A stretch of 23,788 nt of DNA, taken from IMG/VR virus record IMGVR_UViG_3300036399_000685, positions 1 to 23,788 of that record; one strand, given 5' to 3'. The first letter of the stretch is position 1, and each line of letters starts with the position of its first letter. The DNA is from a virus. Of the stretch, positions 1 through 22,845 are shown one piece after another. Position numbers and translations under genes: made by a program. The notes beneath the pieces are model-generated. The model was not told where the DNA came from. It was given only the letters and a program-made list of their open reading frames with translations, and ran no database searches.

Positions 1-48
1 TATATTACTCGCTAAAAGGGCTCCTCTATTGTCTCTAATTAATGCCAT
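1..48 (-). CDS. N-terminus of a gene cut by the window edge, probably structural
   Basis: An ATG at 48 opens a frame that stays open to the edge and gives 16 residues, MALIRDNRGALLASNI. It lies 8 bases after the stop of the 207-residue structural gene, the tight spacing seen throughout the tail operon, so it is probably the next late gene. Too little is visible to name a family. Being a real start rather than chance is supported by spacing and direction only. Confidence 0.5.
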   Translation of the reverse strand, partial: MALIRDNRGALLASNI

Positions 49-56
49 AGTTTATT

Positions 57-680
57 TTATTGAACGTAAGTTACAGTTACTGGTATTGTTTGCGAACCAC
101 CAGTTTCGTTACCATAAACCGTAATTGTAGTTTTGATGGTCGAAGTTAATGATGGGTTTGGAATAAATTTAAATGTTAATCCTTTAGCAATTGCTGCAGT
201 TGCAGATATATCATCACCGATAAAAATAGGCACTGAACCTACATCCGATGTTACACCTTCTCCTACAATATCTCCTGCATTTTTGTTAGATAATACAATA
301 GTGTATCCTAAACTTCTATTTCCAGCTGGAGATGTAGTTGGTGATAATGAAACTTCACCACTTCTTTGATTAACTGAAATGGTTGGTATACCAAATTCTA
401 CAACAGGAATACGAGTTGTATTTTTAGGTAGTGTTACCAATTTATATTTCATTACTTGCGTTTCATCAGGATTGGCTTCCAATACTGGCATATTCTTAAT
501 TGCCGCATCATAATATGCAGAACCAAGTGGATGTGCCGGTTCGTATAGTGTGTAATCAATCTCATCATCTGCTAACGCAAATTGAGTAATGTTTAATCCT
601 TGTCCTGATGCTAATTTTTCTCTACCTTTTTTAGTAAGAATTGCATCAACGGTTAATTCGCTATTACTTAAATATCCCAT
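57..680 (-). CDS. Phage structural (tail/baseplate-associated) protein, 207 aa
   Basis: The N-terminal ~45 residues (DAILTKKGREKLASGQG, then ITQFALADDEIDY) match a conserved head segment that I recognise from predicted tail or virion proteins of T4-like aquatic phages. The C-terminal half (about 100-207) is rich in Thr, Ser, Val and Gly, has no cysteine, and looks like a beta-sandwich or Ig-like domain, ending in repeated Thr-Val strands. There is no signal peptide or membrane segment. It follows the giant 1671-residue protein after a 48-base gap that carries a conserved promoter-like motif, so it may have its own late promoter. The ATG at 680 has an A-rich leader and no Shine-Dalgarno. The exact role is unknown; a tail-fibre accessory, whisker or neck protein are all possible. 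Confidence 0.7.
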   Translation of the reverse strand: MGYLSNSELTVDAILTKKGREKLASGQGLNITQFALADDEIDYTLYEPAHPLGSAYYDAAIKNMPVLEANPDETQVMKYKLVTLPKNTTRIPVVEFGIPTISVNQRSGEVSLSPTTSPAGNRSLGYTIVLSNKNAGDIVGEGVTSDVGSVPIFIGDDISATAAIAKGLTFKFIPNPSLTSTIKTTITVYGNETGGSQTIPVTVTYVQ

Positions 681-694
681 AATGTTTTATTATT

Positions 695-715
695 CTTTGT
701 TTATAAATATAATAA
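695..715 (-). promoter_or_regulatory. Candidate late promoter upstream of the 207-aa gene
   Basis: Read on the minus strand, this gap contains TTATTATATTTATAAACAAA, which equals a site at 12328-12348 except for one base. The TATATTTA core is at 704-711, 23 bases before the ATG. The core resembles the Bacteroidota -7 element TAnnTTTG, and no TTG/TTTG box lies about 20 bases further upstream, as expected if a gp55-type sigma factor lacking region 4 recognises only the -10 zone. The function is inferred from conservation and position. Confidence 0.5.
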
Positions 716-728
716 TTTTTAAATTTCG

Positions 729-3700
729 TTATTCTACTTCCAAAATAGGTTCGGAAGAATCTCTACCAGTCTTATTTACTCTTAATGTATTTGGATTAGA
801 AGCAAATGTTTCAATAGGTGAACTCCCATCTAATGTAGTTGCCGCAGTATTTTTAGAACCCTTAAAGAAACTATTTTGTAATCCCCTAGTTAAATCGGAA
901 GTAAATTTATTATGCGTTGGTAAATATCCATTTACATTTGTTACTTCTATTACATTACCTTTAACAATAGGTACAACAGAACCACTAAATGGTTGAATAT
1001 TTAATCTTGTTTCAGTATAAGTTTGAATATCTGAAATGTATCCACCGCGTGGGTCACCCAATCCGTTAGCCGAAGCAGTTATTGCGAATTTTTGTACAAT
1101 TCTTTCTTTTTGTTCGGTAATTAATTGTACTCTAACTCTTTCTTTAACAACTCTATTATCTTTATTAAAATATGTTCTAATTGCAGAACCACTCTGTGCA
1201 TAAATACCAAACCCAATTGTTTCAAATTCAGTTTGTCCTATAATTTGATTTGAATCTGTACTATCAATTTCACTTACAAGTGTAGGTTCTCCCAATTCTG
1301 CATTTATTATTACTTCTTTTTGATAAGAATCCGAATTAAAAACAAAATTAGAATTCATATCAATAATAGAATCTTGCTGATAATTTTCAGCAAATAAACT
1401 ATTTACTGATGCAGTTGAAATCAATGCTTCATACTGATTATTTTCTATCGTTAAATTTTCGGATAGATTAGCATCTATTAATGTTTCTTTTTGAATATTT
1501 TCAAATGTAATAACGCTAGTATCAGATAATTTTATTTCAGTTTCTTTCTGATAATCATCTGCCGTAGGTTTTTTGTGAACAACTTTACTTCTTTCTAAAA
1601 AGTGTGGTTCTATTAATAAACCAGTAGTTGCCTTAACCCTCGCAGGCAACATCTTCTTTAAATCTTCAAACATAGATTTCTCATATAGTTTGATTAGATT
1701 TATGTAAGCATATATATCTCTATTATCAAATCTTTGGAAATAATAATTTCTTAAATTATCCAATGATTTGTAATTTGGTTTATAATCATCTGAAGGGTCA
1801 CCTATATAGTTATCAATATTTAACCCACCAAAAGTTTTAGCAATATCCATATTTAACTCCTTTGTAGGAGAGAAAAATAAACCAACTCTGTTAGAATCAG
1901 TTGGAGATTGGTCAAATGCTTTTTTAGTTGCTCTACTTTTTGAAGATAAATCTACACCAACACTTCCAGATATTTTTTGATTAGTTAAAGTATATTGGTC
2001 TTCAAATCTAACTTTATTAGTTGAGAATCTACTCGCTCCACCATCTGGATAATCCATTACAATTGTTCTATCGATTACTTCGAATTGATATGGATATTCA
2101 CTTACAGATGGGAAACTAAACGCCGATGCTGATAATAATGGTGTAGTGTTTACCGAATATAGTGAAGCAGTAGTTCCATTTTCATAATCATTTCTAGTCA
2201 AACCATTTTCAAAATAAATGTTAGTATCAACATTTATTAATGAAGATGTTCCAGATGTACCATATAAGTTTTTAGGATATTCAAAATCCAAACGGAAATA
2301 TAAATCATCGGTTGATGATGTAACACTATTTCCATTAATCATTTCAGGAAATGAAACGTGTTCATAAAATCTTTCAGTATCCAATACTTCAGACCATAAA
2401 CGGAATTCATCTAAAGAACCAACATAATTACCTCCAATTTGTAATATAGAACCAGTGTTCCATAGAGTTGTTACAGAACTTGCAGATACGGATTGTTGAA
2501 ATATAGTTCTTTCTTTGTTAGATTGTCTTACATCTAATTTTAATCCATTAGAACCACTACTTACCGAAATACCAAAAAAGTTTCCATTAAATATTGGTAA
2601 TAACGATGAAGATATTGTGTTTAGTAATTGGTCTGAACCAGAATATGTGAATTTAACTTCACCATAATTACTATCAGTTGAACCACTTAAATTTACATTC
2701 CACCCGCTACCACTTATTAAAGTATATTGAGATGAATCTGATGGTTTTACAAATAACTCAATTGTATTTGGTTTTCTACCTTTTTCAGTAGTTTTCCATT
2801 CCATTTGGATATTAGAACCACTCGTCATTGTAAGTCCCGTAGTAATATTATCTATTACCAACTTACTTTTAGATGTATCGTTTATTTCAGGACCTCCAAA
2901 TTCTAAAATTGAAAGATTAGATGATGGAATACCATAACACGCCATTAAAGCATGTATACCTCTTCTAGTACCCTTATGTTTTAATAGATATGGTAAATTA
3001 TTTACAATTCTTCTCCAAACTTCGTTAGTTCTTTGTTTTGCTGGGTTTGATTCTGTATCATTACCTTCTTTATCTTTACCAAATACATAACTCCACAAAT
3101 CAGCATCAGCTGCTAAATTTTTAGCATCCCAACTAAATGATTTTAAAGTATCGAAAAGTAATTTATCAGAAATACCATCTTTGGCTCTGTACCCTAACCC
3201 TCTACTTTTTTCAATAGATTTTGTGTGAAAATAAATATTATCAAAATGATGTCCAATCATTGAGAAAAATAATATTAAACTTTCATTTTCATCACAATTT
3301 ACTATGTATTGTGGTATATTATTTAATACATAATTTGAATTATTAGCATCATATATATTTGCAAGTTCTTCTATATTAGAATACCAATTAGAAACTTCAT
3401 TAGATGTACTTAATCTTCTATTCGTACCGTTGTATGGCCAACTTAAAGAAGATGATTCGTATAAAAATTTCTCGAATCCATCGAAACCATTTATTAATTG
3501 ATTCTTTTTAGATTGTTGTCTTTCTCTTTCTTGAACGGCTGATAATGAGCCTGTATGTGAACCTGATGTTGGGCTTGAGCCAGTATAATATGATGATGAA
3601 TACGAAGTTTCATATACTTCAATAAGTTGAACTTTATAAACAAAGTTAGCAATACGTTCAGCCGCAGAACTAAAATGAACAAAATTTTCCCACAAATAAG

Positions 3701-5744
3701 TAGAACCAGATGAATATTCGATATTTAATTCATCTGTAGTTATCAATGATGAACTTAAATATAATGATACTAATTCGTTAGAAGATGTGGAACCACTTAA
3801 TATTATATTATCTAATGATTCGTAATTAGTAGATTGTCCTTTTACAAAGTCTACATCAATTGTAAAATTTGGTCCTTTTATTGGTGGACAACTTACATCA
3901 TTATTTTCTGTTAATACAACCGTTTCAATTAAAGGATTACTCATTAATTTTGTAATCCAGAATGTTGAATTATTCTGTATATTAGCAGGTAACGGTGAAT
4001 ATAGTTTTAAAATAATTGAATTAACAACATCATTTGGAGCAACAAATGTATTACCTAAATTATCTGTAGACTTTTTAGATAATGTAAAATCATCAGTTTC
4101 CCAAGATGAAATTATAATTTGCTCATCGTTTCCAAAATTAGCAAGGTGTGTTAGATACTTACTTTCTTTTGAAGGTTCATCGATTTTTAATTTTTCAGAA
4201 AAAGCATTAAATAAAGCGTTAGTAATTATATCTTCATTTAATGAAATGGACGGTATAGATAATTTTGTTAATACCTGATAATCATTTCCAATTAATTCTT
4301 CTGCTCCACTTCTGTTGTATGGTTTTAATACTAATGATACACTATCACTACCAACCCAATTTGGATAATTTTCTCTTAATTTTTTAAGATTTATTTTTAT
4401 CGAACCATTTGGTGGTTGATTGCTAAATAATCCAATACTACTACCATCTTTTTGTTTTAAAAAAATATCTACCGATGAAACTGCAAATGATGAGTATGAA
4501 ACATCGTACTCAATATTGTAATCGGAAAATGATGGTATATCGATTGATTCCGCATATATGACTTCCGTAATAGATGGAAAATCATTTATAGCACTAAATG
4601 TTACAATCGTTTCAACCCTAGTTCCTGTTCCAAATGTTGTACTACGTGGAACAAAGAATATTTTTTTAGAACCGTAAATTTCTTTAAAATCTTTTTGAAA
4701 AAATAAAGTTACTTCTTTATCATTAGCTGGAACTTCTAAAACTATATCTGCTGAAATATATACTAAAACTGAATCAGCAAATTTGGTATTAAACGGAATT
4801 ACTATTGACTTTTCTGTATCGGAATCCTTTACACTTACATTGTATTGTGTTTGATTCAATATTACAATTGGTGATTGGGATTTAATTTCTTTTTCAGCTT
4901 CAATTATAACACCTATTCCAGAATTTAATAACGATGCCGGTAATTGAAAAGCGTAATTTTGTTTTGTTAATCTACTATAATTAACAGCATCCGAACCAAA
5001 CTGTTGAGATGTTCCGGAATATATATTTTTTATAAAAATACCATCGGGTAAATTGCCTTTAATTTCAAAATTAACAACACCACCATCCAATATCTTTTTA
5101 GGTATTTTTCCAAATGTATTTTCATACAATTTATTTACACCAGATGCAACTATATCATCTTCGAATACAATTTGATATCCTAAAGTTAAGGAACTTAATT
5201 CTTTTATATTTGAATTAAATAAAACTTCCCATACAACTTCCGGATTAGTATCAGTTACTACTTCCGCAGATTCTTGAGCCACTGGGATTGGATTTCGTTG
5301 TAATACTTCTGTTTTAAATCTTAAAGTTATAGTTCCGAAATTAAAATTTTGAGTTTGTTGTTCTTCCCATACATCATCTATTAATGTATATTCCGTAACA
5401 CCAATTCCTTCAACAATTTCAGTTGCAAATTGTAATTGTTTAGTGTTAACTACGAATTTAGATAATACTTTTCCATTATCTAAATTTGCAGTATAAGTTT
5501 TAGGACCATTAAATTGTAAAGATGAGTTATAAATAATATCAACAGATTTACCATATCCAACCGATACTTCTTCTTCAAAAAATTCTAAATCAGTATCTTC
5601 ACTTATTAAATAAATTTTTAATGAAGATGGCGGATTAGTTGGCCTATATGTGGGAGCGTTATAGGGGCCGGTTGGGCCTGTATTCCCAGTGCTTCCGTTA
5701 TTATTAGAATATGGATAAGTGTAAAGGCTGTCTTGTTCTGCCAT
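729..5744 (-). CDS. Giant baseplate/tail-fibre structural protein with P2 gpI-like and LamG-like segments, 1671 aa
   Basis: Residues ~17-40 form a short collagen-like, Pro-rich stretch (GSTGNTGPTGP). About 40-800 are beta-rich and Ser/Asn-rich, without recognised domains. About 800-940 are helical and end in WRRIVNNLPYLLKHKGTRRG (to ~929), which resembles the KGT-containing helix of Tail_P2_I/gpI-type baseplate proteins. About 955-1150 resemble a LamG/concanavalin-like jellyroll (GGNYVGSLDEFRLWSEVLD), a fold used for glycan binding. Near 1380 comes LIEPHFLERSKV, then five ~19-residue repeats (1398-1490) and a Ser/Thr-rich tail. It is much longer than T4 gp7 (about 1030 aa) and fills the slot after gp6 where wedge and fibre genes usually lie. 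It is probably a wedge component that carries or connects to receptor-binding parts. The gpI and LamG assignments are by eye and tentative. The ATG at 5744 follows an A-rich leader. Confidence 0.75.
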   Translation of the reverse strand: MAEQDSLYTYPYSNNNGSTGNTGPTGPYNAPTYRPTNPPSSLKIYLISEDTDLEFFEEEVSVGYGKSVDIIYNSSLQFNGPKTYTANLDNGKVLSKFVVNTKQLQFATEIVEGIGVTEYTLIDDVWEEQQTQNFNFGTITLRFKTEVLQRNPIPVAQESAEVVTDTNPEVVWEVLFNSNIKELSSLTLGYQIVFEDDIVASGVNKLYENTFGKIPKKILDGGVVNFEIKGNLPDGIFIKNIYSGTSQQFGSDAVNYSRLTKQNYAFQLPASLLNSGIGVIIEAEKEIKSQSPIVILNQTQYNVSVKDSDTEKSIVIPFNTKFADSVLVYISADIVLEVPANDKEVTLFFQKDFKEIYGSKKIFFVPRSTTFGTGTRVETIVTFSAINDFPSITEVIYAESIDIPSFSDYNIEYDVSYSSFAVSSVDIFLKQKDGSSIGLFSNQPPNGSIKINLKKLRENYPNWVGSDSVSLVLKPYNRSGAEELIGNDYQVLTKLSIPSISLNEDIITNALFNAFSEKLKIDEPSKESKYLTHLANFGNDEQIIISSWETDDFTLSKKSTDNLGNTFVAPNDVVNSIILKLYSPLPANIQNNSTFWITKLMSNPLIETVVLTENNDVSCPPIKGPNFTIDVDFVKGQSTNYESLDNIILSGSTSSNELVSLYLSSSLITTDELNIEYSSGSTYLWENFVHFSSAAERIANFVYKVQLIEVYETSYSSSYYTGSSPTSGSHTGSLSAVQERERQQSKKNQLINGFDGFEKFLYESSSLSWPYNGTNRRLSTSNEVSNWYSNIEELANIYDANNSNYVLNNIPQYIVNCDENESLILFFSMIGHHFDNIYFHTKSIEKSRGLGYRAKDGISDKLLFDTLKSFSWDAKNLAADADLWSYVFGKDKEGNDTESNPAKQRTNEVWRRIVNNLPYLLKHKGTRRGIHALMACYGIPSSNLSILEFGGPEINDTSKSKLVIDNITTGLTMTSGSNIQMEWKTTEKGRKPNTIELFVKPSDSSQYTLISGSGWNVNLSGSTDSNYGEVKFTYSGSDQLLNTISSSLLPIFNGNFFGISVSSGSNGLKLDVRQSNKERTIFQQSVSASSVTTLWNTGSILQIGGNYVGSLDEFRLWSEVLDTERFYEHVSFPEMINGNSVTSSTDDLYFRLDFEYPKNLYGTSGTSSLINVDTNIYFENGLTRNDYENGTTASLYSVNTTPLLSASAFSFPSVSEYPYQFEVIDRTIVMDYPDGGASRFSTNKVRFEDQYTLTNQKISGSVGVDLSSKSRATKKAFDQSPTDSNRVGLFFSPTKELNMDIAKTFGGLNIDNYIGDPSDDYKPNYKSLDNLRNYYFQRFDNRDIYAYINLIKLYEKSMFEDLKKMLPARVKATTGLLIEPHFLERSKVVHKKPTADDYQKETEIKLSDTSVITFENIQKETLIDANLSENLTIENNQYEALISTASVNSLFAENYQQDSIIDMNSNFVFNSDSYQKEVIINAELGEPTLVSEIDSTDSNQIIGQTEFETIGFGIYAQSGSAIRTYFNKDNRVVKERVRVQLITEQKERIVQKFAITASANGLGDPRGGYISDIQTYTETRLNIQPFSGSVVPIVKGNVIEVTNVNGYLPTHNKFTSDLTRGLQNSFFKGSKNTAATTLDGSSPIETFASNPNTLRVNKTGRDSSEPILEVE
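1281..1553 (-). repeat. Five imperfect ~19-residue repeats in the giant structural protein
   Basis: Repeats begin at residues about 1398, 1417, 1437, 1455 and 1474. They start YQKETEIKLS, IQKETLIDAN, QYEALISTAS, YQQDSIIDMN and YQKEVIINAE. The pattern is aromatic/Ile-Gln-x-Glu, then Ile, then a polar stretch ending in Asn or Ser. Unit lengths are 19, 20, 18 and 19 residues. The DNA has diverged much more than the protein pattern, so the repeats are old. A beta-solenoid or stacked-hairpin spacer is a reasonable guess. Confidence 0.65.
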
Positions 5745-5761
5745 TATTTATTTTTATTTTA

Positions 5762-5769
5762 TATAAATA
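5762..5769 (-). promoter_or_regulatory. Weak promoter-like element before the giant structural gene
   Basis: The 38-base gap between the 433-aa and 1671-aa genes contains TATTTATA on the minus strand, 17 bases before the ATG. It resembles part of the two stronger late-type sites but lacks the AACAAA extension and the exact TATATTTA core. Its palindromic partner on the plus strand equals the T4 late box TATAAATA, but no plus-strand gene follows it. Confidence 0.2.
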
Positions 5770-5782
5770 CTTTAATATTATT

Positions 5783-7084
5783 TTATTCTACACCTCGGTT
5801 TGTATTTTTATCTCTTACTTGTACTCCCGTTGCGTACCCTCGGTTTGTTCCATCTGCGGTTAAAGCATCAAGAAATTCTTGTTGAGCTATTTCTTCAGGG
5901 GTCATACCACCAACTAAACCTACATTATTAGTAGGTGGTATAGTTGTAGTTGTGGTTGTTGCAGGTGCCGCAGTTGTAGTTGTGGTAGTTGTAGGTAGTG
6001 GAACTTTTGGCGGTAAGTTAGATACATTTTCGGTTCCAGTAGGTGGGTCTTTATCAGTAACACCTTGGAATGATACTGCAGCTAATTCTGGTGAATACAC
6101 ATTTCGTATAATTTCCACTTTGGTATCATACAATTCTAATAAATTTTGAACTTGTTTTTTAACTTCTTCTACTGCAAATTCAACTGGTAATGTTTCATAT
6201 TTTATAACTCTTCTGGACAATGTTTTTATATTAAATGTTATAGAAGCATTTAATATATTTTTTATTTCATTTAATAGGTAATTAAAATCATATTGGTCAC
6301 AATCATCAAATCGTTTTTCGGATGGAGACCCGAATGTAGATTGAGTAATATCATAATTTTTATTTGTTAACCAATAGGTAACACTATTTCTAAAATCTAT
6401 AAATATCTTCTTTTTAAATTCGTTAAAATTACTCAATCCAAAATCTTTTTTAAGAATTGCTTGAAAATCGTTTCCAAATTTTGCTACCAATGTATCATCT
6501 ATGGATTGTAACGATGTTGTTTCAAATGAATCTAATCCATCTAATATATTTTTTTTATAAAACTTAAAATCTCTATTTAAATTATTTAAGTTTAAGAATT
6601 GTTTAGTATTATTTATATTTAGTTGAGGATTATTAGTTTTTAATGGTATAATACGAAGTTCTTCTCTCGATGGAGATATTTCGTGTATCCAAACTCTTTC
6701 CAATTCATTTTCACTACCAACTCTACTACGAACGAAATTAATATTAACTTTAAGAATACCGTTTGTAAACCCTAAATCATTTAATAATTTTTCAATATTA
6801 ATAGCAAGTTCTTTTTTCCCCAATGTATTAGTAAGTGAATACATATATGAACCTATGCTATTTTTTTTTATGTATGCAACATTTTTTCCTGATTTTTGGG
6901 GTAAAAGTATATTATTAATATCGTATACAGATACTTCCATCACATCATACTTACACTCACCAAATTCGGTTTCTTGTTTTTCGTTTTTTGTAACAATAAA
7001 CAAATCTTCTGCAAGGAGAAACTGCCCTTCATTGGTTGAATTTGAATTTATGCTATCAAAATTTGTATATTTTCTAATACTCAT
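5783..7084 (-). CDS. Conserved-type phage structural protein with polythreonine linker, 433 aa
   Basis: Residues 1-150 are mixed alpha/beta and include WIHEISPSREELRIIPL, a phrase I recognise from tail or baseplate-associated proteins of T4-like phages. About 160-345 are helical and Asn/Lys-rich. About 360-388 form a low-complexity linker of two Thr runs separated by AAPA and flanked by Pro. The last ~45 residues are a short Gly/Thr-containing tail. No transmembrane segment or enzyme motif is visible. It lies 10 bases downstream of the coiled-coil gene and 38 bases upstream of the giant structural gene. The linker suggests two parts held flexibly, for instance a virion anchor and an exposed tip. 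The precise role is unknown. Confidence 0.65.
   Translation of the reverse strand: MSIRKYTNFDSINSNSTNEGQFLLAEDLFIVTKNEKQETEFGECKYDVMEVSVYDINNILLPQKSGKNVAYIKKNSIGSYMYSLTNTLGKKELAINIEKLLNDLGFTNGILKVNINFVRSRVGSENELERVWIHEISPSREELRIIPLKTNNPQLNINNTKQFLNLNNLNRDFKFYKKNILDGLDSFETTSLQSIDDTLVAKFGNDFQAILKKDFGLSNFNEFKKKIFIDFRNSVTYWLTNKNYDITQSTFGSPSEKRFDDCDQYDFNYLLNEIKNILNASITFNIKTLSRRVIKYETLPVEFAVEEVKKQVQNLLELYDTKVEIIRNVYSPELAAVSFQGVTDKDPPTGTENVSNLPPKVPLPTTTTTTTAAPATTTTTTIPPTNNVGLVGGMTPEEIAQQEFLDALTADGTNRGYATGVQVRDKNTNRGVE
5942..5996 (-). repeat. Tandem duplication encoding the Thr-rich linker
   Basis: Two 25-base copies (5942-5966 and 5972-5996) match at 23 positions and are offset by 30 bases, or ten codons. 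Each encodes a run of Thr. The five bases between them are GC-rich (gccgc) and, with the flanking bases, encode the Ala-Pro spacer. Such a unit could expand or contract by slippage and so change linker length in frame. Confidence 0.7.
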
Positions 7085-7094
7085 ATTTTATATA

Positions 7095-8249
7095 TTAATA
7101 CGAATTTGGGTGAGATTTGTTTATGTTGCATGGATACTCTTTAAATTCAGTTGTACCATCTGGTTTAGTAGCAATCACTCTAATAGTACCTGTATATAAT
7201 TTACCTGCCGAATATCCAGCAAAAGGTGCAATGTCTCTCGAATCAGCACTTTTTGGTATCGCGCTAGTTTTTATTTTAAAATCAATAGTTTCATTACCAT
7301 TAGCAGGAATATCAAAGTTATTCTTTGGTACGGTTACCCAACTCCAATTATTGGCCAATTTAAGTTGAAATGTTATGTTTACAGGTTGAGTATCGTTATT
7401 TGTTATAGCCAATTGTCCGTTTGAAATCCATTTGTTTGCGGCATAATCTTTCGCATTCAATTTAGCAGATAATCCTTTTAATACTTGATTATCTTCTTTA
7501 GGACCATCCCATTTAATAATTGTAGTTTTAACTAAAATATCCCCACCACTTGCTAATGCAGTATTGGATGCCGATTGTTGTATAGCTTGTTGTTGTTGAA
7601 CTGCCCCTAATTGAGATTGTAAACCTTCTATAATTGAGTTTAGTGAATCTATTTGTTTTATTAATGCTTCTATTTGTGCTTTAAATCCTGCGTTTTGAGA
7701 TTGTAAAGATGCTCTTAAAATAGATTCATCTACTGATTTTTGCACTGCAGATTGTATCTGTGTTGCAAATTGTTCGATTACTTTTGATAATGCATCCAAT
7801 TGATTAACTAATACATCATTAGTTTGCTCTATTGATAATCGTTTATTAGTTTCAGATAATACTCTAGATGTTAAAGTATTGATTTCAGAATTTAAAACTT
7901 CAATATCTGTTGTTAATTTTTCGACTTGTTTTCTTAAATCTGTATTAGTAATAACTTCATCATCGTATAATGGTTTAGGTACTAAATTAAGATTTACTTC
8001 AGGAATGTTTGGTTTTAATTCTTTAACTTCGGTATCAATTGCTTTTAAAAGTTCAACATTATCTATTTTGGATATAACTAAAGGTTTAAATACTAAAGAT
8101 GATGCTAAATTATTTTCATTAACTACGGTTACACCATATTCATTTTTAGAAACAGCGGCAGAACCTGATACTTTTAGAATATTTTCTAAATCAGTAGTTC
8201 TTTTTTCTTGTAATTTTAATGCAATTGCTTCTAATGATGTTAATGCCAT
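7095..8249 (-). CDS. Coiled-coil tail/baseplate protein with C-terminal beta domain, 384 aa
   Basis: Residues 1-95 are mixed, with Lys/Leu-rich helices at the start. About 103-225 show strong heptad character (LRKQVEKLTTDIEVLNSEI and onward, ending in a Gln-rich stretch), so a long coiled coil is likely, perhaps trimeric as in many phage fibres. About 236-378 look like an all-beta domain with alternating hydrophobics (PVNITFQLKLANNWSWVTVP) and a repeated Asn/Thr pattern, compatible with an Ig-like sandwich. It sits two bases after the DNRLRE-like gene and ten bases before the polythreonine-linker gene, within the baseplate operon. No family name is assigned; a fibre, whisker or wedge-periphery protein fits shape and context. 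Confidence 0.65.
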   Translation of the reverse strand: MALTSLEAIALKLQEKRTTDLENILKVSGSAAVSKNEYGVTVVNENNLASSLVFKPLVISKIDNVELLKAIDTEVKELKPNIPEVNLNLVPKPLYDDEVITNTDLRKQVEKLTTDIEVLNSEINTLTSRVLSETNKRLSIEQTNDVLVNQLDALSKVIEQFATQIQSAVQKSVDESILRASLQSQNAGFKAQIEALIKQIDSLNSIIEGLQSQLGAVQQQQAIQQSASNTALASGGDILVKTTIIKWDGPKEDNQVLKGLSAKLNAKDYAANKWISNGQLAITNNDTQPVNITFQLKLANNWSWVTVPKNNFDIPANGNETIDFKIKTSAIPKSADSRDIAPFAGYSAGKLYTGTIRVIATKPDGTTEFKEYPCNINKSHPNSY

Positions 8250-8251
8250 TA

Positions 8252-9313
8252 TTATACTATTTGAAATGTTAATTTATCATCAATTATGGTAGATATTTCA
8301 CCATCAATTATTTTTAATTTTAATCTATATGTCCTATACAATGGTAGTGTATTTAAATCTAAAATAAAATAATTGGATGTATTATCACATGAAATTTTAG
8401 TGTATTCTCCAAATGGATATATAACATCATCTGTTATATAATCTTCCAATTGATAATATGATGTTGTAGGTAAATACTTTGATTGGTCATATTCAAATGT
8501 TGTTGAAAATGACTTTAAAGGAAACATATCTCTACCTTTAATTCTAATTTTTATCTTACTATCTTTACTATATTCCGTTTTTAAATTGGTAATAATTACT
8601 TTATAATCATCTTGAGCAGAACCAGTAACTGGTAATAAACTGCCTGTTACAAATGATACATCATTCCAAACTATTTCTAATTTTGGCTCATATATAGTAG
8701 TAGTTTCTTTAGAAAAGAATTTCAATACACCATAATCTAATGTATTTTCTTCGTTTTCTAACCCATGGTGTATAATAAACCCATTATTTGGTATGGAGCC
8801 ACTTAACCATCTATTAACGATACCTGTCACATTAATTCTGATATCAGCATCTTCATAGTTATAAGATTGAGATGCTTGAGATGCAGTATACCACGTTCCA
8901 CCTTCCGCGTTTGCAGAACCAGTTGTTCCTGGCGTAAATACCGCAGTTCCTGCAGTAACATTATCTTGCCAAGTATCAACACCATTTCGGTATTTCCAAC
9001 TTACACCATCCGATGTAATATTATCAAATTTAGTACCAGTACCCATTGACCAACTCTGTGATACTGCATTAGCATGGATTGTATATTCCAATGGAATTTC
9101 TTCTGCTTGAGAAGATTTTAGATTTAAATAAACAATAGAGCCACTTGGGATTCCCATATTAGCTACATCAAATTTTATTAAGGTTCTAGCTATGTCTTTA
9201 GTGGAACCATAATATAATTTACCAACCTCTAATATCTCATCTCTACCTGCATTTTGGTCTGGTTGTTGTAAGTAGATACTGGCATCGAACGATGATGTGA
9301 ATAATTTATGCAT
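8252..9313 (-). CDS. DNRLRE-like domain structural protein, 353 aa
   Basis: Residues ~1-215 resemble the DNRLRE/CBM96-like beta-sandwich found in secreted and surface proteins: DASIYLQQPDQNAG near the start, then RTLIKFDV near 43-50, a Trp-rich middle (SWKYRNGVDTWQDN) and INVTGIVNRWLSG followed by NNGFIIHHG. The remainder (~220-353) is a second beta-rich segment. These domains are usually carbohydrate-associated or serve as stalk modules. The gene lies one base after gp6 and two bases before the coiled-coil gene, so a virion location is very likely. It occupies the position where T4 has wedge proteins gp7/gp8. I infer a peripheral baseplate or adhesion role; the domain call is by pattern only. 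Confidence 0.65.
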   Translation of the reverse strand: MHKLFTSSFDASIYLQQPDQNAGRDEILEVGKLYYGSTKDIARTLIKFDVANMGIPSGSIVYLNLKSSQAEEIPLEYTIHANAVSQSWSMGTGTKFDNITSDGVSWKYRNGVDTWQDNVTAGTAVFTPGTTGSANAEGGTWYTASQASQSYNYEDADIRINVTGIVNRWLSGSIPNNGFIIHHGLENEENTLDYGVLKFFSKETTTIYEPKLEIVWNDVSFVTGSLLPVTGSAQDDYKVIITNLKTEYSKDSKIKIRIKGRDMFPLKSFSTTFEYDQSKYLPTTSYYQLEDYITDDVIYPFGEYTKISCDNTSNYFILDLNTLPLYRTYRLKLKIIDGEISTIIDDKLTFQIV

Positions 9314-9314
9314 A

Positions 9315-11345
9315 TTATAAAGCTCTTCCTTTTATATCTTTGTTAGGGTATTTTACTTCGAAAATGCAAGGGTCTAAAGATGGATATACTATCTTACCTC
9401 GAGTTGCTTCATCGATGTTATATTTATTTGGTGAATAATTTCCATCTCCACCACATAAATTTGATATCTTTACGGATGGTACACTCATTACTCCTTCTAC
9501 GTTTGCAAGTATTAATTCTAATTCAGAAATGTTTATTGGTTTATTAAATGTCCAATTATCTATATTAAAGTAATCTTGTACTTTAACTAAACAATTGGTA
9601 ACAACTTCTCTTTTATTGTAGTTTGAATAACATATTACATCAAAGTCAACACCTATATTTACAACAAATCCATCAATCATATTCACCGCATCTGTAATCA
9701 TTCGATACTCTCCTAAATATGTTTTTAGGTTCTGTTTAACTGCCTGATTTATTGGAGTTAAATGTTTATTAACATCATACCCTAAAACATACATATTAAT
9801 TGCAAATGGGTTATTTACTTCATTCAATGATGATTTTTTAGTTGAAAGATATTTAATTAATTCACCTTGGATATCAGATTTACTCATACCCTTAAATCCG
9901 TCTACTAAATTAGTAAATTCTGCGATAGATGCTGGACTAGATAAAATAGATGCGGGTGAATTATTATCTATCTCACCATCTTGTGATACATACACTTTCG
10001 CAACACTTCCATATCTTTCTGGCAATGATAATGCTCTTACTATATAATCCTGTTTAGTTACTGCTCTGTTTTGTGAACCAAATGTTGCTAAAGCATTTTG
10101 TCTAATTTCTTCAATACTTTCTGCTCCTCTACCCCCTATTGCAGGTTCCAAATTTTCTACTGCAATTGATGATTTAAATGAGTTATACATTCCAACAATT
10201 CCAGATGGTATAGCTAACAAATCATCATCAAATTCAACTTTTTGAATTTTTGTTAAATCACCAACATTCACATTTGATGCAATTCCACCACCTGTTAAAT
10301 ACTTTATAGTTAATGTTTGTCCAGCAGGTGCTATACCAAATGTATTAGTTTTTAAAAAATTAGATGGGTCAATTCCGTGATTTAATCTATTAACAGAATT
10401 TGCCAAACCTAATCCTATATTTTTTGTATTGGGTAATATTTGCTCATCTCTTAAATTAACATCACCACTTCCAAATTGTATTTCGGTTGTATTATCCGAA
10501 TTAATTTTTACAGAAAATCTACGAGGTACTTTTTGTACTTCTAAAATATATGGAACTGAACCAGAATAGTATGATAATTCATTCACATTAGGTTGTTCTA
10601 CAAATATACTTTCTTGAGCCAAATATGGAACTTCGTAATATTTGTTATTATTTGAATCTGCTATTGATACTATTTGTATAATGTTAGTTTCGGATAATTG
10701 GATAGTTGGATAATCCGTATCACTACCTAATGTAATACCAGTAGTATTTTCTCTAGCTGATATGGCTTTAATTTTTTTAGATACTAAATATTGAGTAGGA
10801 GTACCTGTCGTAGCATCCCTCTCATATACTTCAATTGTCCTATCAGTTGGGCTTGCAAAATCAATTGCATCAGTTGTTATAAACGATACATTACTATTTG
10901 TAGATGATTGTACCTCAAATCCAGCTTTTATTTTAAAGTAGAATCTAGAATCAGCTTCATAATTTGTACCACTGTTGTTTTGCGCATTATACACCGATGG
11001 TATTAATTGATAAACGGTTAATGTAGTTATAGCAGGTGAAGTTACTTTGGGCTTATACCCCATAGATTGTGCCAATGATACCACATTTTTACGTTCCGTA
11101 GCGTGTGATAACATTGATTCTTTTAATTGAGTATCTTGGTAAAATGAAAGAACATCTCCAATTGCTGCAGCTTGTTCAATAAACACCATACCAGGTGATG
11201 CTTCATTAAAATCTGAATATGTATTTGGGAAATAGGTTTTAGTAAAATCTATCAAATTTTGCTTAAACGTAGCAAAATCTTTACCAATGTAATTGATGTT
11301 TTTTGTATCACTACCCCAACTTTTATTTGATGGATTAATTGCCAT
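9315..11345 (-). CDS. 6: Baseplate wedge protein gp6-like (Baseplate_J-like), 676 aa
   Basis: The length is close to T4 gp6 (660 aa). The N-terminus carries the characteristic block IGKDFATFKQNLIDFTKTYF (about 20-39) and then EASPGMVFIEQAAAIGDVLS (about 48-67). The middle contains a Baseplate_J-like segment around the GGRGAESIEEIRQNALATFG stretch and RAVTKQDYIVRALSLP. In T4, gp6 dimers join neighbouring wedges into the baseplate ring, and the protein is conserved across contractile injection systems. Here gp25 lies just upstream (two-base gap) and a DNRLRE-like structural gene just downstream (one-base gap), matching the conserved gp25-gp6 pairing. No odd features were seen. Identification is firm at family level. 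Confidence 0.93.
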   Translation of the reverse strand: MAINPSNKSWGSDTKNINYIGKDFATFKQNLIDFTKTYFPNTYSDFNEASPGMVFIEQAAAIGDVLSFYQDTQLKESMLSHATERKNVVSLAQSMGYKPKVTSPAITTLTVYQLIPSVYNAQNNSGTNYEADSRFYFKIKAGFEVQSSTNSNVSFITTDAIDFASPTDRTIEVYERDATTGTPTQYLVSKKIKAISARENTTGITLGSDTDYPTIQLSETNIIQIVSIADSNNNKYYEVPYLAQESIFVEQPNVNELSYYSGSVPYILEVQKVPRRFSVKINSDNTTEIQFGSGDVNLRDEQILPNTKNIGLGLANSVNRLNHGIDPSNFLKTNTFGIAPAGQTLTIKYLTGGGIASNVNVGDLTKIQKVEFDDDLLAIPSGIVGMYNSFKSSIAVENLEPAIGGRGAESIEEIRQNALATFGSQNRAVTKQDYIVRALSLPERYGSVAKVYVSQDGEIDNNSPASILSSPASIAEFTNLVDGFKGMSKSDIQGELIKYLSTKKSSLNEVNNPFAINMYVLGYDVNKHLTPINQAVKQNLKTYLGEYRMITDAVNMIDGFVVNIGVDFDVICYSNYNKREVVTNCLVKVQDYFNIDNWTFNKPINISELELILANVEGVMSVPSVKISNLCGGDGNYSPNKYNIDEATRGKIVYPSLDPCIFEVKYPNKDIKGRAL

Positions 11346-11347
11346 TA

Positions 11348-11785
11348 CTAATTATTTATATTTATTTGTACTGATTCTGTTAAATTTGGATTTGATGCTA
11401 ACGCAAATTGAATGTCTAACGATATTCTGTTTGTATCAATATCATTATCATCGTAATCAAATACTATTGAAGTTAAACTTAAATATGGTAGCCAAGTATC
11501 AACTGCATCTACAATAGATGTTTCAATTCTTGATTCAATTGTAGCACCATCCATCTGTTCAAATAACACCAACCAAACATCACACCCAAAATCAGGATTC
11601 ATTAATCTTTCTCCCTTTTTTGTTAGTATTAGGTTTTTTAAATTATCTTTTGCTTGAGTTAGAGTAGTGTAGTTTGTAGAAAATACACCATTAGAATTTG
11701 AAGATTTGCATATCCCAATTCCTAATATCTTATAATCATTTTCCGCTAAATCTGCTACTTTTACGTTACCTAACTCTATTGCCAT
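11348..11785 (-). CDS. 25: Baseplate wedge protein gp25-like (GPW/gp25 family), 145 aa
   Basis: The hallmark of the family is present: NLILTKKGERLMNPDFGCDV at about 51-70, including the Arg and Asn-Pro-Asp-Phe-Gly that precede a helix (LFEQMDG, then a helix to ~95), followed by the beta-strand region ISLDIQFAL at 121-129. T4 gp25 is 132 aa, so the size fits. In contractile tails gp25 contacts gp6 and the sheath initiator and is needed to trigger sheath contraction. The ATG overlaps by one base the stop of the 175-residue gene (TAATG), and gp6 follows two bases later. The tail end encodes several Ile-Asn codons with an accidental TATAAATA. Confidence 0.92.
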   Translation of the reverse strand: MAIELGNVKVADLAENDYKILGIGICKSSNSNGVFSTNYTTLTQAKDNLKNLILTKKGERLMNPDFGCDVWLVLFEQMDGATIESRIETSIVDAVDTWLPYLSLTSIVFDYDDNDIDTNRISLDIQFALASNPNLTESVQININN

Positions 11786-12312
11786 TATTTAAATCGTTTT
11801 ACTAATTCTGAATAATCTCTTGTTAATGCTTTTATTGTAGCATCTTGTAACCCATCACCAGTTGATTCCAATTGTTGTGGAATGTTTTGAGGAATATTTG
11901 ATTCTCTAAAATCCATAGTTTCCCAATCACTATCATCAACCCTTAATTCTGGTTTAATCATATCCAATACACTACTTACCGATTGAGCACCTTCTTTACG
12001 TTGCTCTGCTGAAAATGGTTGAGTCATATTAAGAATCTCATTAATCATCGGGTCTTTGGAAAATTCCTTTTTGATTTGAGGTTTTGGTTGAGGTTGTACT
12101 ACTTTTCTACTTTGTTGTAACGCGGAATTTGCAGCTTCAAATGGGTCTGTAGATTTAATTGCTTCTTTTAATGTAGGCGTAACTGATTTTTTAGGTTGAT
12201 TTAAAGTAACCACACCAGATTTGATAAGTTTAGCAACTTCTTCTTTCACTTGTGCTTTTACTTCATTCTTAACCACTTCTTTAATTAGTGATAATAAAAT
12301 ATCTGATTTCAT
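11785..12312 (-). CDS. Uncharacterised protein of the baseplate operon, 175 aa
   Basis: Not recognised. Residues 1-35 form a Lys/Glu/Val-rich amphipathic helix (SLIKEVVKNEVKAQVKEEVA). The middle (~36-140) is Pro/Gln/Lys-rich, probably disordered, with NEILNMTQPFSAEQR near 90-105. The last ~20 residues are helical and basic (KALTRDYSELVKRFK). No membrane segment or catalytic motif is seen. It overlaps gp25 by one base and is preceded by a gap with the conserved late-type promoter motif, so it heads the gp25-gp6 run. Its charge and disorder suggest an assembly factor, chaperone or adaptor for the baseplate, which is inference. Confidence 0.6.
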   Translation of the reverse strand: MKSDILLSLIKEVVKNEVKAQVKEEVAKLIKSGVVTLNQPKKSVTPTLKEAIKSTDPFEAANSALQQSRKVVQPQPKPQIKKEFSKDPMINEILNMTQPFSAEQRKEGAQSVSSVLDMIKPELRVDDSDWETMDFRESNIPQNIPQQLESTGDGLQDATIKALTRDYSELVKRFK

Positions 12313-12327
12313 AAAAATTATTGTTCT

Positions 12328-12348
12328 ATTTGTTAATAAATATAATAA
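12328..12348 (-). promoter_or_regulatory. Candidate late promoter before the 175-aa/gp25/gp6 run
   Basis: On the minus strand the gap reads TTATTATATTTATTAACAAA, differing at one base from the site at 695-715. The TATATTTA core is at 12337-12344, 24 bases before the ATG at 12312. The two sites are otherwise in unrelated intergenic sequence, so conservation suggests function. It would give the gp25-gp6 group an extra transcription start. Start-site mapping has not been done; the assignment rests on sequence and position. Confidence 0.5.
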
Positions 12349-12366
12349 GTTAAAATTTACACCGAT

Positions 12367-13362
12367 TTACCTTGCAATTGAAATAAAATTATCCGTTGAT
12401 AGTAATGTAGATGATTCTGCCATCCCTGCCTCATCTCCATATATTATAGATTTTATAGCAGCTGCAATTTGCGGTTCTTGGGTTTCTTCACCTTCTATAA
12501 ATCCTTTAGCTATAGTTGTTGCAAGTTGAGAAACTACGTCGGTTTCAGTTTCATTTTGAGTTATGGTATTTGTAACACCAGATAACGTATCTGCTGTAAC
12601 TAATAGTGCAAGGTTTCTCATATCTTTAAAATCTAAAGAACTTAATGGGTTACCGCTAAATGGTTTAACAAAATAACCTGCCCAAGGTAATACTCCAGGT
12701 GCAGGTGGTGCTGGTGGTGGGTATGTACAATTACAGATAAATAGTCCACCTACAGTTAGTAAATGTACTGATGCGGATATTATAAAATTTAATAAAAAAG
12801 GAGAAATACTTCCGTTGGCATTCACAATAATTGGTGTCCATATTCCAGGAGATAAATTAAATCCAACATTTGTTGTTAAATTTGCAACTGCACCAGCACA
12901 TGGTATATTTGGGACGGGTATTTTAGCTGATTGAGCCCCCAGCCAATATGCCTGAATTGCTGGTCCGATATCCCTTAATAAATCTCCCGTTTTACTTACT
13001 GTAGTGTTATTTAAAATTAAAAATAAAGTTCTTTCCATTGCTTCAACATTTCCTTCAAATGGAACACCACCTATCAGAGTTTTACCACCTTTTATAACTT
13101 TATCGTATTCTTCAGTTAAAGATTGAGCAAACCAATAATTATTAATTGTATTATTTAATTCTGTTTCTGATACATTATCACTAATAACACCAAGGTCACC
13201 AACGATGGAAGTTCCTCCTAAAACGGAAGCACCTATTGCAACTCCTTTAGCTTTAAGGTAATTTTCTGACATTTCTAATGCCATATTTAAATAAAAATCC
13301 GTCCAACTATTAGAGATTCCTCCTTTAAAAATTTGTTTCGCTTTATTTAAATTTATAGCCAT
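12367..13362 (-). CDS. Uncharacterised protein of the baseplate operon, 331 aa
   Basis: Not recognised. The N-terminal ~40 residues are helical (SWTDFYLNMALEMSENYLKA), then come Gly-rich segments. A hydrophobic stretch at ~189-209 (LLNFIISASVHLLTVGGLFI) could be a membrane segment or a buried core helix. It is followed by two cysteines (CNC) and a Pro-rich PPPAPPAPG at 215-223. The C-terminal ~80 residues are helical. It starts in a one-base overlap with the stop of the gp5-like spike gene (TAATG), so it is translated with the spike and is probably a tail hub or tip protein. Nothing in it resembles gp27, gp26 or a tape-measure protein clearly enough to name it. Confidence 0.6.
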   Translation of the reverse strand: MAINLNKAKQIFKGGISNSWTDFYLNMALEMSENYLKAKGVAIGASVLGGTSIVGDLGVISDNVSETELNNTINNYWFAQSLTEEYDKVIKGGKTLIGGVPFEGNVEAMERTLFLILNNTTVSKTGDLLRDIGPAIQAYWLGAQSAKIPVPNIPCAGAVANLTTNVGFNLSPGIWTPIIVNANGSISPFLLNFIISASVHLLTVGGLFICNCTYPPPAPPAPGVLPWAGYFVKPFSGNPLSSLDFKDMRNLALLVTADTLSGVTNTITQNETETDVVSQLATTIAKGFIEGEETQEPQIAAAIKSIIYGDEAGMAESSTLLSTDNFISIAR

Positions 13363-14606
13363 TAGGTTTTACTTAAATAATTATTAGCAGATAATATAGT
13401 TTTTAATTGTGAGTTTATTGATTGAAATGCAGCTGCGTTTTCAGGACTAACCTTGGATGGTCCAGATGGAGTTAAATATTGTTGTTCTAAAATAGCACTT
13501 ATTAAATCTTTTAATATCTTAACAAGTTCTCCTCCCAACACCATTTGTTGTACATCTGCACCTTCTTGTCCTACTCCAATGTTCTTTCCTATAAATACTT
13601 TACCACTATCGGAATTAAGGAATATTTGATTAGAACCTTTTGAGTGTATTGTTATATTTTTATTGTTGTGAACATATACTTCTTTTTCTGCATCAATTGT
13701 AAAATTACCATCAGTTAATATACCAGTGTTTCCTTTACCAAATATAATAAATTCACTTGCTTTCGAAGAAAGAATTATTCTATCCGAATTTATAAATAAT
13801 TGGTCACCTTTTAATTTATCAGATGCGGGATATTCTTTGAATGCAGTTTTAGTTTTGGCTACGGTTTCTTTAAATGGTATTTTTACTTTACCAGAAGTTA
13901 TATAAATTGATGTACCATCTTTGTTAATATCCTCATCTACTAATTCACCTATTTTTTTTGAATCCAATTCTGGATTCTGTTTATTACGAATAAAAATAGA
14001 TGGAGATGATGTTTTACTATCTTCAGTTAAAAAAAACTCGCTAAAACGAATTGTGTTACCAACTCTACCACTTATAATAGTATCACCGTTTGATGGTTTT
14101 AAAAATTTAATTTTTTCATTTACTACATATTCGTTTTTATCTTTAGTTTTAGTTTTTGCATTTGTTTTACCACCAGTAGCAGCAGTATTAGCCATAGAAC
14201 CACCACCCTGTTTTCCAGCAGGTACTTCTACATCTTCCTCTAACGTAGCATAATAAGTTGTATAATCTCTTCTATAATTTGAATAAGGAGTATTTGTATA
14301 TGGTAAATAAAATGATTGATTATGTAGTTTTACTATAACTACCGTTTCTCCTTTGATTGGAAATGTAAAATTATTTTTATCAAATGGGAATGCGTAATCA
14401 TCTACTTTAATATTACTTTCTCTTCTGTATGTAATTGCACCATACATTCTAGCATCTTTATCCGAAAATGTTTTATTATCATTGTATATTGAAATAGAAT
14501 CAAGTCCTGCTTCACCTTGTTCTTTGGTTAACAATTCAGTTGTTGTACCGTATACATTATCTACGGTTGCTAAAAATCCAAATATATTACTTTGGGTATC
14601 TGCCAT
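13362..14606 (-). CDS. 5: gp5-like baseplate central spike (OB fold plus beta-helix), no lysozyme domain, 414 aa
   Basis: Residues ~10-110 look like the gp5/VgrG OB-fold region (AYGAITYRR-like strand near 53-62, then PIKGETVVIVKLHN near 83-96). Residues 174-188, GDTIISGRVGNTIRF, match the block seen in gp5 proteins of aquatic T4-like phages. About 265-345 have short periodic strands (INSDRIILSS, FTIDAEKEVYVHN, IFLNSDSGKVFIG), as expected for a triple beta-helix. T4 gp5 is 575 aa and holds a lysozyme domain between OB fold and helix. Here that interval is a Gly/Lys/Thr-rich linker (~128-160), so no muralytic activity is evident. It overlaps by one base with the genes on both sides. The identification is good; the lack of lysozyme is read from length and linker composition. 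Confidence 0.82.
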   Translation of the reverse strand: MADTQSNIFGFLATVDNVYGTTTELLTKEQGEAGLDSISIYNDNKTFSDKDARMYGAITYRRESNIKVDDYAFPFDKNNFTFPIKGETVVIVKLHNQSFYLPYTNTPYSNYRRDYTTYYATLEEDVEVPAGKQGGGSMANTAATGGKTNAKTKTKDKNEYVVNEKIKFLKPSNGDTIISGRVGNTIRFSEFFLTEDSKTSSPSIFIRNKQNPELDSKKIGELVDEDINKDGTSIYITSGKVKIPFKETVAKTKTAFKEYPASDKLKGDQLFINSDRIILSSKASEFIIFGKGNTGILTDGNFTIDAEKEVYVHNNKNITIHSKGSNQIFLNSDSGKVFIGKNIGVGQEGADVQQMVLGGELVKILKDLISAILEQQYLTPSGPSKVSPENAAAFQSINSQLKTILSANNYLSKT

Positions 14607-15010
14607 TATAATTTAGTTTTTATTTCTTCAATTTCAACCTGAATATCTAATAACTTTTCATCTGATTTTTTTTCTACTTCATTTATAGTATCTTCTAATT
14701 CGTTTAGTAATTGTGCTTTTTCAGTTTCACTTAACCAACCATCTTCACCAATGCCTTTAGCTTCAGCTTGAGCCAATCGTTGTGCAATTGTAGCCAACTT
14801 AATTAAATGGTCATCATTCTTAATGGATGAATCGATTAAGTCTCTAATAATTGGAGCTATGACAGTTGCTTCACCTACACTCTTAATTAATTTACGAAGT
14901 GATTCAATCATTTCTGAAATGTTCTTCTTCTTTACTTGCTGATTATCGTAAATATCTTTAAATAGTGATGATAAATTTTTACCATCAAATAATTGAAATT
15001 CTGTGCTCAT
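14606..15010 (-). CDS. Small helical protein upstream of the spike gene, 134 aa
   Basis: Not assigned to a named family. It is nearly all helical: ISEMIESLRKLIKSVGEATV (31-50), an internal segment RDLIDSSIKNDDHLIKLATI followed by AQRLAQAEAKG (to ~96), and a C-terminal Glu/Lys-rich coiled coil (about 100-134). No signal peptide is seen. The general look recalls small conserved proteins next to baseplate hub genes in T4-like phages, but I cannot name it. Its start overlaps the SGNH gene by four bases (ATGA) and its stop overlaps the gp5-like start by one base (TAATG), so it is probably made together with the spike. A role in hub assembly is likely but inferred. Confidence 0.6.
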   Translation of the reverse strand: MSTEFQLFDGKNLSSLFKDIYDNQQVKKKNISEMIESLRKLIKSVGEATVIAPIIRDLIDSSIKNDDHLIKLATIAQRLAQAEAKGIGEDGWLSETEKAQLLNELEDTINEVEKKSDEKLLDIQVEIEEIKTKL

Positions 15011-15774
15011 AATATATTCTTATTTACTATATAATTATAGATTTCTTCACTTATTAGATTATACCCAATTTCATTAGGATGTTGTGCGGGGTTTTTTTCT
15101 ATCATTTCATTTGATTCAAAACAATCTGTATTGGTTTGCTTTAAATAATCTTTTAAAGTTTTTTTAGAAAAATAATAATAATTATTTTTATTAATTAAAT
15201 GAGATATATCATCTTTAATATCTAAATCTACAATCATTTTATCAAACGCATCTCCCATAAAATAGTTTACACCATAACATTCAAAAAGTTTTTGTAAAAA
15301 AATAATATAATTCTGATTTACTATATTATAGTAATTTTGACTAAACATTTGATTAAGAAAAAAAGACTTATATTCCGAAAGAAATTTATCATAAACAGAA
15401 TCATTACTTTTGTATGAGTGTGTAAATTTTTCAGGTAAATTGAGTAAGTGCTTTACAGACCAACTAACCCATTGTTGACGTGGTAAAAATGCGGCATAAT
15501 CTCTTAAAGATGAACTCCAAAGAATTACTACCAAATCTCCCTCTTTTATTCTACCATTAACTACATCATCAATTATTGAATTAAAAATAACAGCATTTGG
15601 ATTACCACTTTTACCATTATTAATCCATTTTAATTCTAATTTTTCTGCTAAATTTTTTACCCAAGAATGCTGATTTCTATAAACTATAAGGTCTTGGTTT
15701 TTTAAACTTTTCTCTATTTCTAAATTACAACCTTCACCTTCGGTCCAAGAATCACCGTATGCATGTAATATCAT
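15007..15774 (-). CDS. SGNH/GDSL-like hydrolase, 255 aa
   Basis: The N-terminus has a block I signature, AYGDSWTEGEG (5-15), with Ser9 as the presumed nucleophile. A block II-like glycine and Asn follow in NNGKSGNPN (about 52-60), then a hydrophobic strand with VVILWSSSLRD (about 81-92). Near the C-terminus, HPNEIGYNLISEEI supplies the block V His. The usual Asp three residues before that His is replaced (NPAQH), so the triad is incomplete or the acid comes from elsewhere. The family hydrolyses or transfers acyl groups, often on sugars. The gene is extremely AT-rich. It is coupled by ATGA overlaps to the carbamoyltransferase upstream and the 134-residue gene downstream. A joint role in surface-glycan or nucleotide modification is inferred; the substrate is unknown. 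Confidence 0.7.
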   Translation of the reverse strand: MILHAYGDSWTEGEGCNLEIEKSLKNQDLIVYRNQHSWVKNLAEKLELKWINNGKSGNPNAVIFNSIIDDVVNGRIKEGDLVVILWSSSLRDYAAFLPRQQWVSWSVKHLLNLPEKFTHSYKSNDSVYDKFLSEYKSFFLNQMFSQNYYNIVNQNYIIFLQKLFECYGVNYFMGDAFDKMIVDLDIKDDISHLINKNNYYYFSKKTLKDYLKQTNTDCFESNEMIEKNPAQHPNEIGYNLISEEIYNYIVNKNIL

Positions 15775-17468: not shown

Positions 17469-17472
17469 AATA

Positions 17473-18162: not shown

Positions 18163-18163
18163 T

Positions 18164-18406: not shown

Positions 18407-18407
18407 A

Positions 18408-19055: not shown

Positions 19056-19059
19056 ATTT

Positions 19060-22371: not shown

Positions 22372-22373
22372 CA

Positions 22374-22777: not shown

Positions 22778-22845
22778 AGTTTTTTTATTTAAGTTTTTGA
22801 AATAATTTAAACTGATAGTTTCCATTTTTATACCAATCAAATTAT

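Follow-up and report, generated by a model that had tools for sequence, protein, structure and literature searches.

In phage T4, late promoters consist of a single box, TATAAATA, which has no upstream hexamer, lies ahead of virion genes, and is read by the sigma factor gp55. The available portion of one study places the T4-type late box at −13 to −6 from the transcription start and gives the late promoter of phage Aeh1, which has a diverged gp55, as CTAAATA (PMC1524935). The primary promoter of Bacteroidota is TTTG / TAnnTTTG, with a nearly invariant G at −5 in Flavobacterium johnsoniae, according to the accessible part of a second study (PMC6847099). Here, we examined two near-identical 20-base sites in the virus record IMGVR_UViG_3300036399_000685, the whole 23.8-kb stretch of which (23,788 nucleotides) is called the window. 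These sites are most probably late promoters of a T4-like phage with a Bacteroidota host, carrying a changed box, TATATTTATA, that the phage's own gp55-like sigma factor would read. We infer promoter activity, start site, late timing, and the link between sigma factor and box from comparisons with related genomes and from structure models. In the literature searched, which lacked most subscription journals, late promoters of T4-like phages of Bacteroidota were not described, and the available part of a jumbo-phage review that treats phage sigma factors gives no such box (PMC7824862).

The first-pass annotation had reported a 20-base motif present twice on the minus strand with a single-base difference, in short gaps of the tail-gene region. 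Both copies were recovered, each starting one base higher than it had been placed. They occupy the gaps 681–728 and 12313–12366, ahead of ATG-started open reading frames (ORFs), and PHROG baseplate wedge families at 9315–11345 and 11348–11785 mark this part of the window as a baseplate region. The distance from the 3′ end of the 20-mer to the ATG was measured as 15 and 16 bases, respectively, in place of the 22–24 bases first given. The sites, the genes behind them, and the candidate reader are as follows.

696–715, minus strand: site 1, 20-mer TTATTATATTTATAAACAAA, with core TATATTTATA at 702–711 and a predicted start near 698, placed by purine/G enrichment.
12329–12348, minus strand: site 2, 20-mer TTATTATATTTATTAACAAA, with core TATATTTATT at 12335–12344 and a predicted start near 12331.
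57–680, minus strand: gene of 207 amino acids behind site 1, without a PHROG family; its orthologue in phage immuto (44% identity) likewise lies behind the core.
11785–12312, minus strand: gene of 175 amino acids behind site 2, without a PHROG family, directly upstream of the two baseplate wedge genes.
17473–18162, minus strand: predicted sigma factor of 229 amino acids, with a gp55-like region 2 and a C-terminal helix-turn-helix-like domain; candidate box reader.

Allowing up to 3 mismatches, the 20-mer matched the window 3 times (0.23 expected), and none of 100 shuffles gave as many; the third match (15159–15178) carries 3 mismatches. A sigma-70 consensus scan of positions 1–20000 was uninformative, with 128 matches found and 133.5 expected. 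Because the window alone is too small, the nature of the 20-mer was decided from whole relatives. The putative sigma gene had 331 confirmed related stretches and the baseplate wedge protein 526, of which the best 80 were retained in each case. The named relatives were Flavobacterium phage immuto, which infects Flavobacterium sp. LMO8, and Microcystis phage Mel-JY01. Longer records were read whole: G001 (201,940 bases), G002 (145,144), G003 (238,219), G004 (245,436), G006 (102,380), and G007 (57,253). Nearly all of their genes lie on one strand (200 of 204 in G001). Both exact sites are retained in G001, G002, and G005, 11.58–11.59 kb apart. The exact 20-mer occurs in 72 IMG/VR stretches. In 51 of them it lies no more than 60 nucleotides (nt) ahead of an orthologue of either window gene (31 stretches for the first and 21 for the second, one having both); in the other 21 it lies elsewhere.

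To describe the general motif, the coding strand of intergenic gaps was compared with its own reverse complement, pooling four related records of 102–245 kb (G001, G003, G004, and G006). The three most strand-asymmetric 8-mers were ATATTTAT, TATATTTA, and TATTTATA, present in 99/9, 74/3, and 80/10 gaps (sense/antisense), respectively, and all three are shifts of the single core TATATTTATA. Among the 82 gaps of G001, TATTTATA was found in 26 in sense and 1 in antisense. Sense TATATTTATA was present in 16 of 82 gaps in G001, 10 of 105 in G003, 13 of 120 in G004, and 3 of 33 in G006, antisense TATATTTATA in none; dinucleotide shuffles of the same gaps gave means of 0.11–0.41 and maxima of 2–3. 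Equal density inside genes or on the wrong strand, which the first-pass annotation had named as the observation that would speak against a promoter, was not found. On the coding strand, the exact 10-mer occurred in gaps/genes 19/4 times in G001, 11/2 in G002, 14/2 in G003, 13/1 in G004, 4/4 in G006, and 1/0 in G007, making it 22–152 times denser in coding-strand gaps than in genes (the G007 ratio uses a pseudocount). The other strand had 0/1 in G003 and in G006 and 0/0 in G001, G002, G004, and G007, so that antisense gaps contained 0 in all six records.

The median distance from the core start to the ATG is 31 nt (interquartile range 27–40, range 10–74 nt, n = 77), and that from the preceding stop codon to the core is 15 nt (n = 68). 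Across 89 sites, bases 7 to 3 ahead of the box are almost exclusively A/T, the downstream side is A-rich, and none of the 35 positions before the box has a base above 64%, as would fit a single box without a −35 element. At 13 bases past the first box base, G occurs in 26 of the 89 sites and C is absent (binomial p = 6e-9 against 8.1%); this column was picked post hoc among some 50 free columns, and its rise in G is a hint of the transcription start. Unsupervised motif searches of the 80 nt upstream of genes were dominated by upstream coding sequence, except in G004, which gave TATATTTata, and gaps were used thereafter. A seeded fit on G001 gaps put A at 81% at the last −7 position, where the host has G, an A that the core definition also demands. 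The antisense control of the seeded expectation-maximization fit was discarded, as the near-palindromic seed slides onto its reverse complement. In both gene families, a short AATTT-like stretch, which may be an upstream contact, is conserved about 11–15 bases ahead of the core.

Conservation was followed through the orthologues of the two window genes. Of the 25 distinct sequences ahead of gene 57–680, 24 carried ATATTTAT on the coding strand and 0 on the opposite strand; for gene 11785–12312, the counts were 81 of 82 and 1, respectively. The core-to-ATG distance took 6 values for gene 57–680 and 13, between 22 and 35 nt, for gene 11785–12312; it is thus the box, not the spacing, that is conserved. 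The most distant core-bearing orthologues were 44% identical for gene 57–680 (immuto and Mel-JY01) and 30% for gene 11785–12312. In 202 gaps of 34 loci, picked out of the 80 with sigma genes 44–80% identical, TATTTATA was present in 51 in sense and in 5 in antisense. The stretches from Mel-JY01 and LR756508 had only 2/0 and 1/0 in gaps, and their membership of the box is weak. The first-pass annotation had proposed a blend of the host −7 element with a phage extension, AACAAA. The resemblance to TAnnTTTG lies in the TAtaTTT part of the box, with A replacing the nearly invariant G. The extension did not prove general: AACAAA is mostly kept at site-1 orthologues (75–96% per base), less so at site-2 orthologues (44–47% at two of its bases), and falls outside the genome-wide consensus, in which the core is followed only by A-rich sequence.

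A second promoter-like class, TTTG-N20-TAnnTTT[GA], was found in G003 and G004. It resembles the Bacteroidota consensus given in the accessible part of PMC6847099, which suggests a Bacteroidota host. PHROG scans covered 20 of the 24 genes behind late-type sites in G001 and 20 of the 22 behind host-type sites in G004. The named families behind the late-type sites were a head-tail adaptor, tail fiber, fiber/baseplate protein, tail sheath, tail tube, and one cytidyltransferase; the other scanned genes had no PHROG family or one of unknown function. Host-type sites preceded DNA polymerase, single-stranded DNA-binding protein, exonuclease, endonuclease, epimerase, phosphohydrolase, GroES, GroEL, and portal genes. 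Virion to other named families thus stood at 5:1 versus 1:8 (Fisher p = 0.011). In the gaps of immuto, ATATTTAT occurred 23 times in sense and 1 in antisense, and exact TATATTTATA 6 and 1 times, respectively. After one site within an annotated coding sequence was dropped, 21 genes followed sites, comprising 8 of 20 virion-named coding sequences and 13 of 219 others (p = 5.8e-5). The eight were tail sheath, tail tube, baseplate hub, tail spike, two fiber proteins, a virion structural protein, and the terminase large subunit. Placement ahead of virion genes, as in T4-type late promoters, was therefore observed both in the immuto counts and at the G001 sheath, tube, adaptor, and fiber genes.

The candidate reader was first noticed as a gp55-like sigma gene, an assignment that is borne out by its predicted fold and is weak by sequence. 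An AlphaFold model of the 229-residue protein, built with 40 sequences, had a mean predicted local distance difference test score (pLDDT) of 81.4 and a predicted template modeling score of 0.46. Among the 990 chains of solved structures that aligned with it, T4 gp55 (7d7c_F) ranked first (Z 10.1, root-mean-square deviation 5.2, 120 residues), in a tie with other sigma factors lying within 1 Z. Middling Z scores arise easily for helical proteins, and agreement across rows was used instead: all 50 titles listed for the model were sigma factors or RNA polymerase initiation complexes. Foldseek against viral models gave E 3.5e-4. Among seven whole records, Sigma70_r2 marked one stretch each in G003, G004, and G006, on the sigma gene, at E 0.006–0.028 (below the cut-off), and none in the remaining four. 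In immuto, whose sigma gene occupies 78174–78872 of its record, the phrog_234 late-sigma stretch fell on that gene (E 0.008); this family also matched 7 of 14 control genomes. The protein is thus predicted to be a sigma factor with a sigma region 2 fold. Its C-terminal 99 residues were modeled (pLDDT 89.6) as four helices with a helix-turn-helix-like unit; sigma region 4 ranked first at Z 5.3, tied with signal recognition particle and other rows, and the best Foldseek match was a non-sigma protein at E 1.8. The C-terminal part of gp55 is not known to contain a sigma region 4. T4 gp55 is coupled to the sliding clamp gp45 and has gp33 as co-activator; PF02916, the gp45-type clamp, matched in 0 of the 7 records at E ≤ 1.

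In the nearest competing explanation, the host primary sigma factor uses the sites as ordinary promoters whose −7 element is degenerate, and they form no phage-specific late class. Of the 6 defined bases of TAnnTTTG, TATATTTA does share 5, and host-type sites in these phages tolerate a final TTTA as well. In the G003 and G004 gaps, TTTG was found 19–21 nt upstream at 25 of 54 TAnnTTTG sites and 24 of 80 other TAnnTTTA sites, but at none of the 27 TATATTTATA sites (Fisher p = 4.9e-6 and 4e-4, respectively). As a class, the TATATTTATA sites show neither the −33 TTTG at that spacing nor the terminal G of the −7 element, a base nearly invariant in F. johnsoniae in the accessible text of PMC6847099. 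Conservation also runs beyond the −7 element (TTTATA), and the named genes behind the sites are mainly virion genes. Reading by the host sigma factor is accordingly improbable. An element acting in the RNA leader, as a translation enhancer or a processing or decay site, would explain a location close to the ATG, and certain A-containing leaders are favored in Bacteroidota translation initiation, as stated in the same part of PMC6847099. Such an element is very unlikely, since the core stays constant while its spacing to the ATG does not (13 values in one gene and 10–74 nt over 77 sites), lies a median of only 15 nt past the preceding stop, and is carried by a minority of genes.

A T4-type promoter on the opposite strand that makes antisense RNA is suggested by the plus strand at 702–711, TATAAATATA, which holds the exact T4 late box. 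At site 2, however, the plus strand reads AATAAATA, not TATAAATA, and promoters of this orientation would point away from genes that are nearly all one-stranded. T4 itself argues against this arrangement: in its plus-strand late block (gene 53 to 23), TATAAATA occurs 11 times in sense and 1 in antisense, and TATTTATA 1 and 11 times, respectively. We regard antisense promoters as even less likely than an RNA element. Chance resemblance would be invited by the low GC content (30–32%), and the window by itself shows little, but shuffles and antisense gaps lie near zero and all but one of 82 orthologous leaders retain the core, which leaves chance a negligible probability.

Several observations weigh against late promoters read by a phage sigma factor. 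The coding strand of the window gaps holds 4 copies of the 10-base core with up to 1 mismatch, and the other strand 2; within the window the core is not clearly enriched, and the case depends on relatives. TTTG does occur 19 nt upstream of 1 of the 19 exact TATATTTATA gap sites of G001 and at 19–21 nt in 2 of 23 immuto sites, one of them ahead of the tail tube gene. G001, G002, and immuto have next to no host-type sites, the gaps of immuto containing 0 TTTG-N19–21-TAnnTTTG sites, so that two promoter classes are seen in G003 and G004 only. The division of genes is imperfect: the G004 portal gene (L257:1836–3578) follows a host-type site, and in immuto GroES and PhoH, among the 13 others, carry late-type sites. 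The PHROG class test is small, with 6 versus 9 named genes and many late-site genes of no known function. The core is absent from two orthologues, LR756508 (42% identical, aligned start not ATG) and L339 (27%). For the reader, sequence searches of the 229-residue protein against phage families, Pfam, and PDB returned no significant sigma family match, and phrog_234 ('late sigma') matched 1 of 10 sigma members, at E = 0.3. In G001, its stretch fell off the sigma gene, with two internal stops (E 0.011). Foldseek against PDB gave a best E of 0.011, with gp55 at rank 26 (E = 1.1).

On the late-promoter interpretation, the essential element would be the single box TATATTTATA (core ATATTTAT, final base A or T) beside an AT-only stretch, usually without a −33 element. 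The phage gp55-like sigma factor (17473–18162), together with the host RNA polymerase core, would read this box and switch on virion genes, with transcription starting 12–13 bases past the first box base, which would make the leader about 18 nt long. A separate host-consensus class, TTTG-N20-TAnnTTTG, would serve replication, chaperone, and transfer RNA (tRNA) genes in at least two relatives. The arrangement resembles that of T4 in its single box, missing upstream hexamer, position ahead of virion genes, and gp55-like sigma factor. It differs in that TATATTTATA is the reverse complement of TATAAATA(TA), so that the box is reversed relative to the genes. On the coding strand of G001, TATAAATA lies within 70 nt upstream of 2 of 204 genes and its reverse complement of 29. 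The proposal that a late box other than TATAAATA precedes the late genes thus agrees with the whole-genome data. Aeh1 provides a precedent for a changed late box accompanying a diverged gp55; its box retains TAAATA, and the core here is ATATTTAT (PMC1524935, available portion). With the Bacteroidota primary promoter, as given in the available text, the box shares TAtaTTT and probably the same RNA polymerase core, and differs in usually having no −33 element, in A for the nearly invariant G, and in an added TA.

The simplest account of the reversal relative to T4 would be that the box adapted to the TAnnTTT-type promoters that the host polymerase reads. A broader and rather doubtful extension is that late transcription throughout the clade relies on a sigma factor composed of a gp55-like region 2 and a C-terminal DNA-binding domain, without T4-type clamp coupling, its box having shifted from TATAAATA to TATATTTATA, the reverse complement, as it adapted to the −7 element of Bacteroidota. 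For annotators, a naive T4 late-promoter scan would place these sites pointing the wrong way. With a defined box, late operons could be assigned across hundreds of contigs from uncultured phages. Because the host of one isolate is known, it also offers a direct test of how the box of a gp55-type sigma factor shifts under a host polymerase with a different promoter language.

Three further candidate sites were noted in the window.

22372–22381, minus strand: TATATTTATG, 60 nt upstream of a 58-amino-acid ORF (22145–22321) and 238 nt upstream of gene 21103–22143; G001 has an exact TATATTTATA 238 nt upstream of the counterpart of this gene.
15030–15039, minus strand: weak candidate TATAATTATA, 29 nt upstream of gene 14606–15010, within the end of the preceding gene; the same variant is present in G001.
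5760–5771, minus strand: weak candidate AGTATTTATATA, with 2 mismatches, about 27 nt upstream of gene 729–5744.

The window also carries auxiliary genes amid its late genes at 15771–21063, namely those for carbamoyltransferase, peptide deformylase, 2OG-Fe(II) oxygenase, kinase-like, and endonuclease-like (phrog_8420) proteins, and an Hsp20-like gene at 22397–22840 (phrog_432, E 1.6e-7). At the G001 position matching the G004 portal site, the sequence is TATCTTTATA, which was not called host-type. Host-type sites lie just ahead of the transfer-messenger RNA (tmRNA) gene and one tRNA-Met gene in G003, and ahead of one tRNA-Met gene in G004. Both records carry a nearly complete tRNA set, with tmRNA and tRNA genes at L269:18753–19123 and 19322–19395 and L270 (25 tRNAs) in G003, and at L262:15902–16275 and 19707–19778 and L263 (22 tRNAs) in G004. 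Mel-JY01 (L231, PP395634.1) is 42% identical to the clade in the baseplate wedge protein, 37% in the sigma factor, and 44% in the site-1 gene; its recorded host may merit a check, as the other named relatives infect Flavobacterium.

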